From: Deltaproteobacteria bacterium
GTDB taxonomy: Bacteria; Myxococcota; B64-G9
Assembly (NCBI GenBank): GCA_019314375.1
Contig: JAFCZJ010000040.1
Location: forward strand, 1-64,000
DNA: 64,000 nucleotides
Direction of reading: 5' to 3'
The position numbers and the translations under genes were made by a program. Positions within the stretch are counted from its first letter, which is position 1. The number at the start of each line of letters is the position of its first letter. This document shows positions 14,335 to 36,713 of this stretch, one piece after another. The notes under the pieces were generated by a model. The model was not told the origin of the DNA and did no database searches. It saw only the letters and a program-made list of their open reading frames with translations.

Positions 14335-14350
14335 TGGCACAGTGATTGCT
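14335..14350 (+). promoter_or_regulatory. Sigma54-type promoter of the protease gene
   Basis: TGGCACAGTGATTGCT matches the -24/-12 consensus TGGCAC-N5-TTGCW at every key position (GG at 14336-14337, GC at 14348-14349, exactly ten bases between). It lies 39 bases upstream of the protease ATG. The rest of the 394-bp gap (13995-14388) holds the palindromic half-site array and no gene. Confidence 0.72.
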
Positions 14351-14388: not shown

Positions 14389-15678
14389 ATGCGCAATACA
14401 ATGAACACCCTGCTGATGACGGTTTTGATTCTTGGTCTCGCGGCCTGCTCCGGCGAACAAATGGATGCACAGGATGTAGGTCAGACCACCAGCCGCATCG
14501 TGGGGGGTTCTTCTTTCGACGGCCTGCCGGCCGTGGGTGCCTTGCTCTACAATGGCTCCCAGCATTGCACCGGCACCCTCATCGGGCCGAGGACGGTTCT
14601 GACCGCCGCCCACTGCGTCGACGGATTTTCCGCCTCACGCATGACCTTCATCACCGGACCCAATGTCTCCTACCCCGAGTCCAGAACCCAGGCCGTCAGC
14701 ATGACGGGCCATCCCAGCTACAACGCCTACAGCATCACCAACGATATCGGCTACGTCACCTTGGCCGAGCAACCGCCTGTTGCGCCCATGCCCGTTCTGA
14801 CCTACATGGATTCCTCCTTCCAGGGCACGGACCTCTTTTTCGTGGGCTACGGAGTGGACAACGGCTACAGCCAAACCGGCTCAGGCCTCAAAAGAGCCGT
14901 TTGGATGGGCGTCAGCCGCGTCGACGCCACCACCTTCCGATACGACGATCCCAACCGCAACACCTGCAACGGCGACTCGGGCGGCCCGGCTTTCTTCCAG
15001 GGTTCTGACGGAACCTACTTCGTGGCCGGCGTGACCAGTTACGGAGACCAGTACTGCACCGACTATGGCGTGGACACCCGCGTGGACGCCTACTTGGATT
15101 TCCTGCCCATCGTCAATAGCCAGCCGGATCCCGAGCCGGAACCGGATCCCGTGGATCCCTGTGGCGGCGAAACCTGGGAAGGTCGCTGCAACGGCGAAAC
15201 CGTGGTCTGGTGTGAAAACGAGAAGGTCTATCAACAAGACTGTTCAAGCGACGGCAAGGTCTGCGGTTGGGATGAAGGCCGCGGCTACTACGTCTGTCAG
15301 GTACCCGTTATCGAAGAACCCGAGCCCGTCGAAGAGCCTGAGCCCGTCGAAGAGCCTGAGCCGACCGACCCCTGCGAAGGAGAAACCTACGCGGGTCGCT
15401 GCAACGGCGACACGGTCGTCTGGTGCGAAAACGAAGAGATCATGAACCAGGATTGCGCCGAGCAGGACTTAGTCTGTGTCTACGACGTCGACAAATCCTA
15501 CTTCGCCTGTCGCGAACCGGAAGTCGTCGACCCCTGCAACGGCGAGACCTTCGACGGCCGCTGCGATAACGGCTCGGTCATCTGGTGTGAAAACGAAGAG
15601 GTCAAATCCCTCAACTGCCAAGCATCAGGCACCGACTGCGGCTACAACTCAAGCAAGGGCTACTACGACTGCATGTAA
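14389..15678 (+). CDS. Secreted S1-family serine protease lipoprotein with three Cys-rich repeats
   Basis: A 429-residue exported protease. The ATG at 14389 has AGGAG six bases upstream and starts a signal peptide with lipobox LGLAAC. The mature peptidase begins at RIVGGSS after a possible propeptide. The catalytic triad is His75 (TAAHC), Asp119 (NDIGYV) and Ser197 (GDSGGP). The residue six before Ser is Asn instead of the Asp that gives trypsin specificity, so cleavage after Lys or Arg should not be assumed. After residue about 245 come three copies of a roughly 48-residue Cys module (DPCxGETxxGRCxxxxVxWCENE), joined by acidic Pro linkers such as EEPEPVEEPEP. These look like surface-anchoring or binding modules. 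Confidence 0.85.
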   Translation: MRNTMNTLLMTVLILGLAACSGEQMDAQDVGQTTSRIVGGSSFDGLPAVGALLYNGSQHCTGTLIGPRTVLTAAHCVDGFSASRMTFITGPNVSYPESRTQAVSMTGHPSYNAYSITNDIGYVTLAEQPPVAPMPVLTYMDSSFQGTDLFFVGYGVDNGYSQTGSGLKRAVWMGVSRVDATTFRYDDPNRNTCNGDSGGPAFFQGSDGTYFVAGVTSYGDQYCTDYGVDTRVDAYLDFLPIVNSQPDPEPEPDPVDPCGGETWEGRCNGETVVWCENEKVYQQDCSSDGKVCGWDEGRGYYVCQVPVIEEPEPVEEPEPVEEPEPTDPCEGETYAGRCNGDTVVWCENEEIMNQDCAEQDLVCVYDVDKSYFACREPEVVDPCNGETFDGRCDNGSVIWCENEEVKSLNCQASGTDCGYNSSKGYYDCM

Positions 15679-31199: not shown

Positions 31200-32405
31200 A
31201 TGATCCGCTGCAAACATACTGCACTCTTCTTGACGCTCGTTTTGATTCTTGGTGCCAGCCTTACCGCCTGCAGCAAGTGGCACGAAAAGTACGGCATCCG
31301 CAAAGCGAATGAACTCAACGATCCGGCCACGGCACCCAAGTTGGTTCGCGCATTTGAGCGAGGAGACTGCAACGACGTCTATATGGCCAGCTACCATCTG
31401 CACAGCCTGGGTGCCAAACCCGCCGAGGCCTTGGACAGCCTGGTCAAACAGCTCAACGGCCCCTGCGGGTCGAGTATGCTTTACTACATCCCCATGGTTC
31501 TGGGCCGCCTGGGGGCCCCTGCCCTGCCGGCTTTGAAGGCCGCCATCCAGCACGCCAAGCCGGAAAAACGCCTCTTGGCCATCAGCGGCCTGGGCGAGAT
31601 GCGAGACCAGGCAGCAGAAGCCAGTCGCCTCCTGGCCGAAAAAATCCTCTCCAAGGATCAGCTGGACCTGGACTGGAGCGTGCCCGGCGCAGCCCTGGAT
31701 GCCCTGGGGAAGCTGGGCCCGGCGGGCCGTCAAGGAGAGCAAGCCGTCCTCTCCATGCTTTTGGATGAAAGCTGGCGGAATCAAGCCCTCGACTGCCTGG
31801 TAAAAATCGGCGATCCATCGCCGCGGGCCCTGGAAACCCTGAAAGTCTTGTCGCAAAACGCCGATAACGACAAATTCCGCGAGAAGGCCGTCAAGGCCTA
31901 CAAAAAACTCCACATCAAGGCCTTGGCCCAGGGCAGCCAGGTTGCCGTGGCCGGCGTAAACGACATGCCGGCCGCCAAAAAAATGGACAAGCCGGTGAGC
32001 GCCAAGAACGTCATCGTGGCCGTCTTCGACATCCAGGACAAATCCAAAGCCACGACGGAAGAAGAACTGGACCAACTTACGCTTTTTCTGAGCAACCAGA
32101 TGACCCGCGCCGCCGGCTACAAGGTGGTTCCCCATGCGCAACTGCAACAGCGCCTCCGCCAGGAGAAAAAGGGAAGTTTCAAAAAATGCTACGATGAAGG
32201 CTGCCAAATCGAGCTGGGCAGGGCCTTGTCGGCCCAAAAATCCCTCTCCACCCAACTCATCAAAGTGGGCAAGCAATGCCAACTTGCCGCCACTCTTTTC
32301 GATTTGAAAAACGAGACCACCGACAAGGCAGCTTCCGTGAAGACCGACTGCAGTGCGGACAAGCTCTTAGAGGCTGTCGAGGAACTGGCCAAGCAGTTCA
32401 ATTGA
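31200..32405 (+). CDS. HEAT-like lipoprotein with TolB-N-like C-terminal domain
   Basis: A 401-residue protein. The ATG at 31200 has GAGGAGG six to seven bases upstream. The lipobox is LTAC. Residues about 35-230 are helical pairs with HEAT-like periodicity (GRLGAPALPALKAAIQHAKPEKRLLAISGLGEM). From about 260 comes a separate domain, VIVAVFDIQDKS...LTLFLSNQMTRAAGYKVVPHAQLQQRLRQEKKG, then CQIELGRALSAQKSLSTQLIKVG. This domain recurs in the 38897-39796 lipoprotein. The strand-helix pattern and (Q/E)IELGRAL(S/A)AQK motif suggest a TolB-N/FlgO-like fold. The function is unknown. It is divergent from the HAD phosphatase gene. Confidence 0.75.
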   Translation: MIRCKHTALFLTLVLILGASLTACSKWHEKYGIRKANELNDPATAPKLVRAFERGDCNDVYMASYHLHSLGAKPAEALDSLVKQLNGPCGSSMLYYIPMVLGRLGAPALPALKAAIQHAKPEKRLLAISGLGEMRDQAAEASRLLAEKILSKDQLDLDWSVPGAALDALGKLGPAGRQGEQAVLSMLLDESWRNQALDCLVKIGDPSPRALETLKVLSQNADNDKFREKAVKAYKKLHIKALAQGSQVAVAGVNDMPAAKKMDKPVSAKNVIVAVFDIQDKSKATTEEELDQLTLFLSNQMTRAAGYKVVPHAQLQQRLRQEKKGSFKKCYDEGCQIELGRALSAQKSLSTQLIKVGKQCQLAATLFDLKNETTDKAASVKTDCSADKLLEAVEELAKQFN

Positions 32406-32529: not shown

Positions 32530-32545
32530 TGGCACAGTCCTTGCT
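32530..32545 (+). promoter_or_regulatory. Sigma54-type promoter of the Cys-rich lipoprotein array
   Basis: TGGCACAGTCCTTGCT is a full match to the -24/-12 consensus (GG-N10-GC). It lies about 98 bases upstream of the first lipoprotein ATG. A single TGTGACA half-site lies at 32436-32442, about 94 bases further upstream, where an activator would bind. Confidence 0.72.
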
Positions 32546-32627: not shown

Positions 32628-33179
32628 ATGAAAACCATCCTCGGCATGTCTTTGTTGGCAATCTTTTCCCTCGGCCTGATGGTCGCCTGTGGCGGCTCTT
32701 CGGGCCCCTCCTGCGAAGACGTCTGCAACAAGATGGTCGAATGCGAGCAGGATGACAACGTGACCGAATGCTTGAACCAATGCGCCATCTTCAAAGACGC
32801 CCTGCGGAGCGAGGTCTATGCCGAACTGGGCGACTGTTTCATGGAAAACACCTGCGAAACGCTCAACGCAGAAGAAAATGGGGACATGTGTTTCGAGCAA
32901 GCCATGACCCTGGGCTCCACCACGGCCGGCGAGGCTCTGGTGGATGACCTGTGCGTCAAGTACGTTGAATGCGACGAGACGGAAACACTGACCCAGGAAG
33001 ACTGCGTCAGCCAAATGACAGCCGGAGGAGGAGAAGACGCCCTGGCAGCCATCGGCATGTTCAAAGACTCGGTGCTCGACTGCTTCGTCGGCTGCGTCAA
33101 CGATCTGACCTGTGCGGAAACGATGGACGACAACAACATGGACGCTTGCTCGCAAGACTGTGGTCTCCTCTTGGACTGA
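32628..33179 (+). CDS. Cys-rich lipoprotein, paralogue 1 (B-type module)
   Basis: A 183-residue lipoprotein with lipobox LMVAC followed by a Gly/Ser linker. The mature part is one module of about 155 residues with 15 or more Cys at fixed spacing: CEDVCNKMVEC near the start, CFMENTCETLNAEE, CVKYVEC, FKDSVLDCFVGCVNDLTC and a final CSQDCGLLLD. The protein is acidic. The module is closely related to the second half of the next gene. AAGGAG lies seven bases upstream of the ATG. It is first in a four-gene co-directional array behind a sigma54 promoter. No known family is recognised. Confidence 0.82.
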   Translation: MKTILGMSLLAIFSLGLMVACGGSSGPSCEDVCNKMVECEQDDNVTECLNQCAIFKDALRSEVYAELGDCFMENTCETLNAEENGDMCFEQAMTLGSTTAGEALVDDLCVKYVECDETETLTQEDCVSQMTAGGGEDALAAIGMFKDSVLDCFVGCVNDLTCAETMDDNNMDACSQDCGLLLD

Positions 33180-33199
33180 TGTCTGCGAAAGGAATCGAC

Positions 33200-34231
33200 A
33201 TGAAACGTTTCTTTATCCTGTCTCTCTTGGCTTTGTTTTCCCTTGGCCTGGCTGTCGCCTGCGGCGGTGGTTCGTCCGGACCGTCCTGCGAGGATGTCTG
33301 CACCAAGGTTAGCGAATGCGATTCCACCGAGGATTACAACGAATGCCTCAGCATGTGTGACATGTTCAAAGAAGTCATGCGGGACGAAGCCTATCAGGCC
33401 CTGGGCGATTGCACCATGGAACAAACCTGCGCCTTCATGGAAGAAAACGGCGATTATTGCTTCGAAGCGGCCATGGCGGAAGGCTCACTGACCGCCGCCC
33501 GTTCACTCATCGAGCGGATATGCACCACAATGGCCGCATGCGACACGACGGGCAACTACACCCAGCAACAATGCGTCGATGATATGACCAGCGGAGAAAA
33601 CGACGACCTTGACTCCGCCATGAGCATATTCAAAGACTCGGTCTTGGATTGCGTCGCCGACTGCGTTGAAAACGAGAGCTGCACAGACTTGGCCGAAGGC
33701 TCCGCCCAAGACTGCATGACAACTTGCGGCTTGGTCGTTTTCAGCAGCGATTTCTCGGGCCCCACCTGCGAGGACGTCTGCAACAAGATGGTCGAATGCG
33801 GGCTGGATACCGACATGACTGAATGCCTGAGCGGATGCGCCCCCTTCGAAGACTCCCTGCGGCCTGAGGTCTTTACCGAACTGGGTGACTGCTTCATGGA
33901 AAACACCTGCGAAACGCTCAACGCAGATGAAGACGGGGACATGTGTTTCAGACAAGCCATGACCCAAGGCTCCACCACGGCCGGCGCGGCTCTGGTGGAT
34001 GACCTGTGCGTCAAATACGTTGAATGCGACGATTCGGGAACACTGACCCAGGAAGACTGCGTCAGCCAGTTTACAGCCGAACAAGAAGGCGCCATAGCCC
34101 AGATCGGCATGTTCAAAGACTCGGTGCTCGACTGCTTCGTCGACTGCATCAACGGTCTGACCTGTGCGGAAGCGGCGGATGACAACAGCATGGACGCTTG
34201 CTCGCAAGACTGCGGTCTCTTCATAGACTGA
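33200..34231 (+). CDS. Cys-rich lipoprotein, paralogue 2 (A+B double module)
   Basis: A 343-residue lipoprotein, about twice as long as its neighbours. Lipobox LAVAC. Residues about 28-180 form an A-type module (CEDVCTKVSECDSTEDYNEC, CTMEQTCAFMEENG, TGNYTQQQCVDDM) nearly identical to paralogue 3. After the joint SSDFSGPTCEDVC, residues 183-343 form a B-type module nearly identical to paralogue 1, including the end CSQDCGLFID. It therefore looks like a fusion of an A gene and a B gene that lost the second signal peptide. The ATG at 33200 has AAAGGA six bases upstream. A coupled ATG at 33179 (MSAKGID) is an alternative. Confidence 0.82.
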   Translation: MKRFFILSLLALFSLGLAVACGGGSSGPSCEDVCTKVSECDSTEDYNECLSMCDMFKEVMRDEAYQALGDCTMEQTCAFMEENGDYCFEAAMAEGSLTAARSLIERICTTMAACDTTGNYTQQQCVDDMTSGENDDLDSAMSIFKDSVLDCVADCVENESCTDLAEGSAQDCMTTCGLVVFSSDFSGPTCEDVCNKMVECGLDTDMTECLSGCAPFEDSLRPEVFTELGDCFMENTCETLNADEDGDMCFRQAMTQGSTTAGAALVDDLCVKYVECDDSGTLTQEDCVSQFTAEQEGAIAQIGMFKDSVLDCFVDCINGLTCAEAADDNSMDACSQDCGLFID

Positions 34232-34251
34232 TGCAGACGAAAGGAATCGAC

Positions 34252-34818
34252 ATGAAACGTTTCTTCATCCTATCCCTCATGGCTTTGTTTTCCCTTGGTT
34301 TGACTGTCGCCTGCGGCGGCGGTTCGTCAGGCCCCTCCTGCGAGGATGTCTGCAGCAAGGTGAGCGAATGCGATCCCGCCGAGGATTACAACGAATGCCT
34401 CAGCATGTGTGACATGTTCAAAGACGTCCTGCGAGACGACGTCTATGAGACCCTGGGCGACTGCACCATGGAACAAACCTGCGCCTTCATGGAAGAAAAC
34501 GGCGATTTCTGCTTCGAGGCGGCCATGGCCGAAGGGTCACTGCCCGCCGCCCGTTCACTCATCGAGCGCATGTGCGTGGCAATCGCCGCATGCGACACAA
34601 CGGGCAACTACACGCAACAACAATGCGTCGATGAAATGACCGGGGTGGGCGAAGGCTCCGACGACCTGTACTACAGCATGAGCATGTTTAAAGACTCGGT
34701 CTTGGATTGCGTCGCCGACTGCATTGAGAATGAAAGCTGCGACGACCTGGCCAATGGCTCTGCGGAAGACTGCATGACAAATTGCGGCTTGGGCTTCGAG
34801 TCAAGCGACGACATCTAG
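34252..34818 (+). CDS. Cys-rich lipoprotein, paralogue 3 (A-type module)
   Basis: A 188-residue lipoprotein with lipobox LTVAC and a single A-type module: CEDVCSKVSECDPAEDYNEC, CTMEQTCAFMEENGDFC, CDTTGNYTQQQC and FKDSVLDCVADCIENESC. Its leader (GAAAGGAATCGAC before ATGAAACGTTTCTT) is almost identical to that of paralogue 2, which shows a recent duplication of the whole unit including its ribosome-binding site. The function is unknown. A structural surface or matrix role is possible. Confidence 0.82.
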   Translation: MKRFFILSLMALFSLGLTVACGGGSSGPSCEDVCSKVSECDPAEDYNECLSMCDMFKDVLRDDVYETLGDCTMEQTCAFMEENGDFCFEAAMAEGSLPAARSLIERMCVAIAACDTTGNYTQQQCVDEMTGVGEGSDDLYYSMSMFKDSVLDCVADCIENESCDDLANGSAEDCMTNCGLGFESSDDI

Positions 34819-34845
34819 CCCAACCTGCTTAGAAGGAGAACAGAC

Positions 34846-35427
34846 ATGAAGACAATCATCAGCCTGTCTTTGATTGCCCTTCTTTCCCTGAGCCTGGCGG
34901 TCGCCTGTAGCAGCGGGTCCTCCGGCCCCTCTTGCGAAGACGTCTGCAACAAAATGGTCGAATGCGACCCCTTGGAGAACTACACCGAATGCATCGGTAG
35001 TTGCGGCGAATTCGAAGACGTCATGCGGGACGGCGTCTACGAGGCCCTGGGCAACTGCTACATGGACAACACCTGCGTGTTCCTTGAAGCCAATGGCGAA
35101 TACTGTCTTGAGGCGGCCATAGCCCAAGGCTCCCTGCCCGCGTCCCTGTCGCTCATCGAGCAAATATGCACCAAGTTCGTCTCTTGCGACACCGGTGCCT
35201 ACACGCAGCAACAATGCATCGATGACATGACCGGTGCCGACGAAGGCATCGACATGTACCACTACATGAGCATGTTTTCCGATTCGGTCCTGAACTGCGT
35301 TGGCACTTGCGTCGATGGAGAAGACTGCGGCGCTCTGGCGGACGATGGCCCGCTGATCTGCTTTGAAGAATGCGGCCTCGGCTTCATCGAAGGCAGCGAC
35401 GACGAAACAGACAACCCAGGGCAGTAA
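34846..35427 (+). CDS. Cys-rich lipoprotein, paralogue 4 (divergent module)
   Basis: A 193-residue lipoprotein with lipobox LAVAC and one module: CEDVCNKMVECDPLENYTEC, CYMDNTCVFLEANGEYC, CDTGAYTQQQCIDDM, CVGTCVDGEDCGAL. Its start resembles the B-type and its middle the A-type, but it is the most divergent of the four and ends in a short acidic tail without a Cys. AAGGAG lies seven bases upstream of the ATG. It is the last gene of the array, and no clear terminator follows. Confidence 0.8.
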   Translation: MKTIISLSLIALLSLSLAVACSSGSSGPSCEDVCNKMVECDPLENYTECIGSCGEFEDVMRDGVYEALGNCYMDNTCVFLEANGEYCLEAAIAQGSLPASLSLIEQICTKFVSCDTGAYTQQQCIDDMTGADEGIDMYHYMSMFSDSVLNCVGTCVDGEDCGALADDGPLICFEECGLGFIEGSDDETDNPGQ

Positions 35428-35445: not shown

Positions 35446-35724
35446 TCAAGCCGCCGTCAGATCCCGCCGAGGTCGGCCCTTCTCGTAATTGCATTCACAG
35501 ACCAGCCGACCCTTCTCCGACCAAAAGCACCAGCGCCCCACCCTCATGCCAAAAACATAGTCGCCCTCGGAACGCCTACGGCCCAATTCGTCGTATATTG
35601 TCCAACGACCGTGCATGTGACCGTCAACCAGAACGCCCTGCTGCCATGGCCTGCCATCGCCATAACGCAAAGCCTGGCGCCCCTGCTTCATACGACTCAA
35701 ATGCCTCGCATTGACCATCGCCAT
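35446..35724 (-). CDS. Small MORN/YwqK-like repeat protein
   Basis: A 92-residue protein with tandem repeats of about 23 residues: QALRYGDGRPWQQGVLVDGHMHGRWTIYDELGRRRSEGDYVFGMRVGRWCFWSEKGRLVCECNYEKG. The G-x-x-x-G-x-W-x-x-(Y/W) pattern is that of MORN-like repeats found in YwqK-type proteins. No signal peptide is seen. GAGGAG lies six bases upstream of the ATG. It converges on the Cys-rich array and diverges from the barrel gene at 36087. The function is unknown. Confidence 0.6.
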   Translation of the reverse strand: MAMVNARHLSRMKQGRQALRYGDGRPWQQGVLVDGHMHGRWTIYDELGRRRSEGDYVFGMRVGRWCFWSEKGRLVCECNYEKGRPRRDLTAA

Positions 35725-36031: not shown

Positions 36032-36047
36032 TGGCATGCTCCTTGCT
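36032..36047 (+). promoter_or_regulatory. Sigma54-type promoter
   Basis: TGGCATGCTCCTTGCT has GG (36033-36034), exactly ten bases, then GC (36045-36046). It differs from the consensus only at one -24 base. It lies 40 bases upstream of the barrel protein ATG and about 95 bases downstream of the TGTGACAA dyad. Confidence 0.68.
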
Positions 36048-36086: not shown

Positions 36087-36713
36087 ATGACGACGTCACT
36101 TCGTAACTTGGGTCTTTTTGTTTGCTTGAGTCTTTTGGCCATGCCCGCAACGGTCCACGCCGACAATTCAGAGGCGACGACCGAGGTGGCCGCCAAACGC
36201 GGCATGCCCAACTTTTACCTGGCACACAACCTGACCTTCGCACCCAGCCCCTTGGCGCTTCACAACGACGGCTACGGGGAATGCGGCCAGCGTCTGGGCG
36301 ATGCCGTCGGCATGGAGCTCAACTTCGACTATCGCATCTGGTACTTTTTTCTGGGCAGCCACATCGCCATCTCCGGCGATATTTGGACCATGCGCGAATA
36401 CGCCCTGCGGGTCGGCGGCATGCTGCCTTTGGGCGAACGCTTCTCTTTGGTCGGGGCCGCCTGGCTGGGCACGTCCCATATCGAGACGACCTCTCTTGAC
36501 TGGGACAGCGATTATGCCTACGACACAGATAGAGAGGAAGCGGGGCTTTTGCTGGGTGCCTCCATCGGCGCGCGCTTCATGGTGGCCCGCTGGTTTGGTC
36601 TGACAGCCGACCTGAGTCTGTCTACCGCAATCTGGACAGACAACGACTCCAGCGACCCCGAGCTCCAGATCAACCGCCTTCAAGCCCACACCGGCGTGCT
36701 CTTCGCTTGGTAA
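36087..36713 (+). CDS. Small outer-membrane beta-barrel protein
   Basis: A 208-residue protein with a signal peptide ending VHA. The mature part alternates hydrophobic and polar residues in about eight strands (MELNFDYRIWYFFLGSHIAIS, LLLGASIGARFMVARWFGLTADLSL) and ends GVLFAW with a terminal aromatic, typical of eight-stranded OmpA/OmpX-like barrels. AGGAGG lies six bases upstream of the ATG. Control by sigma54 and a TGTGACAA enhancer is indicated by upstream sites. The function is unknown. Confidence 0.7.
   Translation: MTTSLRNLGLFVCLSLLAMPATVHADNSEATTEVAAKRGMPNFYLAHNLTFAPSPLALHNDGYGECGQRLGDAVGMELNFDYRIWYFFLGSHIAISGDIWTMREYALRVGGMLPLGERFSLVGAAWLGTSHIETTSLDWDSDYAYDTDREEAGLLLGASIGARFMVARWFGLTADLSLSTAIWTDNDSSDPELQINRLQAHTGVLFAW

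Follow-up and report, generated by a model that had tools for sequence, protein, structure and literature searches.

The locus described here lies in a 64,000-nucleotide window of a Deltaproteobacteria bacterium belonging to the Myxococcota (contig JAFCZJ010000040.1, positions 1 to 64,000) and carries a run of cysteine-rich lipoprotein genes, one of which appears to join two modules in a single protein. This raises the question of which protein family these genes represent, how the joined member arose and what their products may do at the cell surface.

Gene array and origin of the fused member

Between positions 32628 and 35427, four co-directional genes encode five copies of one module of about 155 residues (Table 1). 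This arrangement had been proposed from the sequence alone and is confirmed by gene calls and module comparison. The cysteines occupy fixed positions, as had also been noted, while their estimated number of about 15 per module is corrected to exactly 16 in all five copies, not counting the lipobox Cys. The genes are separated by gaps of 20, 20 and 27 bp, and the next gene after the array (35446-35724) is found on the opposite strand. Immediately upstream, a HEAT-repeat lipoprotein is encoded (31203-32405). Since the array sits 32 kb into a contig of 95 kb and its copies differ by 13-15% at the nucleotide level, it is neither the product of an assembly edge nor a collapsed repeat.

Table 1 Features of the lipoprotein gene array (positions refer to the window).
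Feature	Position	Strand	Description
Predicted sigma-54 (-24/-12) promoter	32530-32545	+	TGGCACAGTCCTTGCT; 12/12 consensus positions; ends 82 bp before gene 1 ATG
Gene 1	32628-33179	+	183 aa; lipoprotein, leader and module B (32703-33176); lipobox LMVA/C by eye
Gene 2	33200-34231	+	343 aa; lipoprotein, leader, module A (33278-33757) and leaderless module B (33758-34228)
Gene 3	34252-34818	+	188 aa; lipoprotein, leader and module A (34330-34815)
Gene 4	34846-35427	+	193 aa; lipoprotein, leader and older, divergent module C (34924-35424)
Duplicated unit, copy 1	32700-33745	+	gene 1 module B, stop, gap, gene 2 leader and module A; from repeat spacing and alignment
Duplicated unit, copy 2	33755-34800	+	gene 2 module B, stop, gap, gene 3 leader and module A; from repeat spacing and alignment
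Junction (approximate)	33746-33757	+	module A tail in frame into module B linker; from unit alignment

The two halves of gene 2 match its neighbors as previously recognized: module A is 80% identical to that of gene 3 at the amino acid level (85% of nucleotides) and module B is 77% identical to that of gene 1 (87% of nucleotides). A and B modules share about 43-47% amino acid identity, and module C is 55-59% identical to A and 46-47% to B. The starts of the direct repeats are spaced 1052-1055 bp apart, and alignment of the two units of ~1,050 bp shows an even similarity (about 85-88%) beginning near 32700/33755 and fading near 33740/34800, which places one end of the unit in the B linker and the other in the A tail. 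Judged by this spacing and alignment, the gene 2 fusion was made when a unit of ~1,050 bp, running from module B through its stop, the gap and the next leader to module A, was duplicated once in tandem. This upholds the tandem duplication suggested earlier and refines its unit to a B-A gene pair. Because the unit is such a pair, the order B, A+B, A results in one step. The leaders of genes 2 and 3, described as almost identical in the sequence-only reading, do agree at 69 of 78 nucleotides (88%) but are not special, since they lie within the duplicated unit, the rest of which is about equally similar (B 86%, A 85%); their likeness thus needs no separate explanation.

The duplication had been taken as recent and as a sign of selection for diversity, neither of which is borne out. 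Synonymous divergence (NG86) amounts to 0.36 for the A pair and 0.18 for the B pair, so the duplication is not very recent. This twofold gap is unexpected from one event and may reflect gene conversion or noise. Omega is 0.35 for the A pair (95% interval 0.20-0.58), which by this substitution measure is under purifying selection, and 0.77 for the B pair (0.45-1.53), not distinguishable from 1; neither pair shows an excess of amino acid change. The Cys are kept at 16 of 16 positions in both pairs despite residue differences of 20-23%, the chance of no change at Cys being P = 0.023 (A) and 0.012 (B). A neutral duplication, whose surplus copies would evolve under relaxed selection and bring neither a new function nor an advantage of dosage, would agree with the B-pair interval and with the fact that most relatives carry just 1-2 copies. 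We consider it rather unlikely, however, as every Cys and reading frame is preserved across the five modules, with no decay at 13-15% nucleotide divergence, and the A pair is constrained.

Internal repeat and predicted cysteine pairing and fold

The module itself is an internal duplication of a half of ~70 residues. N- and C-terminal halves align with an HHalign score of 40.6, compared with at most 15.8 in a control in which all non-Cys columns were shuffled. A four-fold repeat test gave clear matches for repeats 1 and 3 (E 4e-8) and repeats 2 and 4 (E 2e-5) but not for 1 and 2 or 3 and 4, and by this comparison the module is a two-fold repeat only, its hairpins otherwise sharing Cys spacing. 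Each half contains two C-x5-C-x(8-11)-C hairpins, at positions 34/40/49, 71/77/87, 108/114/125 and 157/163/174. Additional Cys bracket hairpin 1 (30 and 53) and, in the clade that includes the array proteins, hairpin 4 (153 and 178). A second clade has Cys 95 and 145 and is without 153 and 178. The two arrangements are mutually exclusive, each being found in 15 of 30 sequences with a truncated end as the sole exception, and both members of each pair have changed together. Since the split coincides with one tree branch (98/99 support), with one clade on each side, this perfect correlation represents one event and not many. Joint losses are seen of Cys 34 with 49 in homologue L069 and of 30 with 53 in L025, and these single cases independently support the predicted disulfides 34-49 and 30-53.

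AlphaFold2, run on gene 3 with 8 sequences, predicted an all-helical structure of ~11 helices (mean pLDDT 81, mostly 86-94 over the module). The model of the gene 2 fusion has the same helix order in both modules; its pTM of 0.46 means that their relative placement is not interpreted. An evenly balanced proposition is that the module constitutes a new all-helical domain with four hairpins and eight disulfides, built by stepwise duplication from a single half to a two-half module to a two-module protein, in which one disulfide was relocated whole between 95-145 and 153-178, in either direction.

The first hairpin invites comparison with mitochondrial proteins. Its cysteines, C30-x3-C34-x14-C49-x3-C53, form a twin CX3C motif with a separation inside the 11-16 residues that characterize small Tim proteins, and the nested pairing backed by the co-losses, inner 34-49 and outer 30-53, is the same C1-C4/C2-C3 pairing as in oxidised Tim9 and Tim10 (PMC3759932). 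Small Tim (twin CX3C) and CHCH/Cmc1 (twin CX9C) proteins are helical hairpins with nested disulfides, an arrangement that we infer for repeat 1 of the array module, and weak TIM9 and Cmc1 matches were obtained. The lipoproteins could then act like small Tim chaperones, escorting hydrophobic outer-membrane clients. This is very unlikely: the TIM9 match has E = 0.033, the Cmc1 match is under the cut-off, the predicted module has no PDB fold match and is twice the size of a small Tim, and the module domains are very acidic, not hydrophobic. Unlike these mitochondrial proteins, the array module is a bacterial lipoprotein domain with four hairpins and 16 Cys. Membership in the small Tim family (zf-Tim10_DDP) was rejected on the lack of a Pfam match or of a PDB fold match at E <= 0.001, together with the E-value above and a length of ~155 residues with ~11 helices. 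Cmc1/CHCH membership was rejected on a Pfam Cmc1 score of 14.7 bits, below the cut-off of 22, and a spacing of CX3C/CX5C instead of twin CX9C.

An uncatalogued family in Myxococcota

Searches of Pfam, NCBIfam and PHROGs returned sub-threshold matches only, in agreement with the earlier statement that the module could not be placed in a known family. A sequence search of the PDB found nothing significant, TIM9 included, and no match was detected for the predicted module in the PDB by fold (Foldseek, E <= 0.001) or in a viral fold library, nor for the module in plasmids and phages by tblastn. Scanning contigs of genomes with one protein as query likewise gave no match, whereas an alignment query identified two relatives, which are MAGs labelled Deltaproteobacteria and Myxococcales. 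The profile search that had been suggested did uncover homologues, all the same uncatalogued. In high-GC relatives, where gene-finder ORFs were poor (wrong strand), homologue coordinates were taken from profile searches.

Of nine genomes from the same taxonomic family, eight carry two-half modules, which also occur, with good scores, in two further families. Copy number within that first family ranges from 1 to 6 modules per genome, and the match to a known single-copy family that had been named as refuting evidence did not occur. With the N-half profile, matches were found in 39 of 195 Myxococcota genomes. In other families of the phylum, these include short single-half lipoproteins of ~90-100 aa (e.g. 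L136, L137, L138), which share the lipobox and the pattern C-x3-C-x5-C...C-x3-C followed by C-x5-C...C (per-genome profile E about 1e-11 to 1e-3) but differ from the array proteins in having one half only, in one copy per gene and with no fusion. A degenerate single-half lipoprotein in which hairpin 1 has no outer Cys pair (L134, L135) occurs in several genomes of one genus, 9-13 Mb in size. The array proteins show the features that define the family: ten invariant Cys (lipobox included) in a deep alignment, the N/C half duplication and the usual 16 module Cys. On these searches and alignments, the module belongs to a real, phylum-wide domain family that is uncatalogued in the databases searched.

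In the tree, the array A and C modules group together with B apart, and the tandem pair of another genome, G007, groups by itself, so tandem duplication occurred independently in two genera. The source genome also encodes, elsewhere, a paralogue of the Cys 95/145 type, clade II (L065, G000:C370:20552-21109), for which G005 and G007 contain probable orthologues. Gene neighborhoods of homologues are not conserved among relatives, and context therefore gives no clue to function.

Duplication-driven diversification could also point to variable self-recognition or predation proteins in the manner of TraA, a myxobacterial surface receptor which, according to PMC3325183 and PMC3820747, is likewise a Cys-rich surface protein from the same phylum. 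Polymorphic surface receptors are used by related bacteria as described in PMC3820747 and PMC6372800. The variable copy number, the independent tandem pair in G007 and the relaxed omega of the B pair are compatible with this role, which we nevertheless regard as unlikely because the duplicate pairs show no excess of amino acid change. The array proteins also appear to lack a TraA-like architecture. A SitA-type lipoprotein toxin, in which a toxin domain follows the lipoprotein leader and an immunity gene accompanies it, was considered separately and rejected: no toxin domain was found in Pfam and, beyond the leader, each gene consists of the module once or twice.

Predicted sigma-54 control and a proposed surface role

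The site upstream of gene 1 matches TGGCAC-N5-TTGCT exactly and also fits the regulon pattern TGGCACRN4TTGCW, its distance from the start codon being suitable for such a promoter. Genome-wide, TGGCAYRN4TTGCW occurs at 46 sites compared with 0 for a reversed-pattern control, and nearly all of 30 sampled sites have an ORF start within ~100 bp downstream. Between 32300 and 36100, a sigma-70-like site was not detected. It is strongly supported by these patterns and by the short intergenic gaps given above that the four genes form one operon transcribed from a single predicted sigma-54 promoter, in line with the earlier proposal. A point against the proposal is that, among 11 homologues examined, only one has a sigma-54 site upstream (L026, 11/12 match, 60 bp upstream) and the other ten have none. 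At least 8 of the 30 sampled sites lead to lipoprotein-like ORFs, several of them Cys-rich.

Additional sites were noted nearby and elsewhere. A second exact site (14335-14350) closely precedes the gene for a trypsin-like lipoprotein that contains 23 Cys (14389-15678). Directly after the array, a sigma-54-like site with one mismatch to the strict consensus (36032-36047) is followed 39 bp later by a predicted outer-membrane beta-barrel gene (36087-36713). In the same genome, sigma-54 sites precede other Cys-rich lipoproteins with 9-54 Cys (L095, L101, L103, L107, L118).

All four leaders, export-type signal peptides of the kind handled by Sec and type II signal peptidase, end in VA/C at residue 21 and by inspection contain the lipobox [LVI][ASTVI][GAS]C, as had been assumed in calling the proteins lipoproteins. 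The array module has a pI of 4.05, and homologous modules are all acidic (pI 4.1-5.2). In one homologue (L025, 3951-7115, in G001), the module stands at the N terminus of a protein of 1,054 aa and has lost Cys 30, 53 and 77; the long C-terminal part gives weak EGF-like matches and contains EGF-like stretches as well as WAVG repeats reminiscent of a propeller. This combination of module and EGF-like stretches is a typical surface architecture and fits a surface role.

We consider it reasonably probable that the cluster as a whole encodes a disulfide-rich lipoprotein family whose fused member was made by the B-A duplication, which is expressed as a sigma-54 operon and which serves as acidic, disulfide-locked binding or adhesion units at the surface, the last function being inferred. 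The proteins would be exported and lipidated at Cys21, their module Cys would be oxidised in the periplasm, and they would be retained at the outer membrane, probably on its outward face. There, these helical domains, small, acidic (pI about 4) and locked by disulfides, may bind a surface partner, a matrix polymer or metal ions or, alternatively, may serve the surface as structural or adhesive elements, with the gene 2 fusion providing a longer form with two heads. Expression would be tied to an envelope or lifestyle program under sigma-54. Such control fits the published link between sigma-54 and the bacterial exterior, lipoproteins included (PMC3162934); in the excerpt of that account, -24/-12 promoters likewise stand before exported lipoproteins and envelope genes, and the present module family does not appear.

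The interest of the locus lies in a new protein family, the biological surprise being modest until a function or structure comes. The fused gene 2 exemplifies how a multi-module surface protein can arise through one recombination step, and the family offers a clear duplication ladder together with a testable disulfide swap that, if true, would be a natural disulfide relocation with the remaining bonds fixed. The genome-wide list of sigma-54 sites suggests a program of disulfide-rich or Cys-rich lipoproteins in this lineage, and the module defines an extracellular domain that is widespread, though uncatalogued, in a phylum known for social and predatory bacteria.
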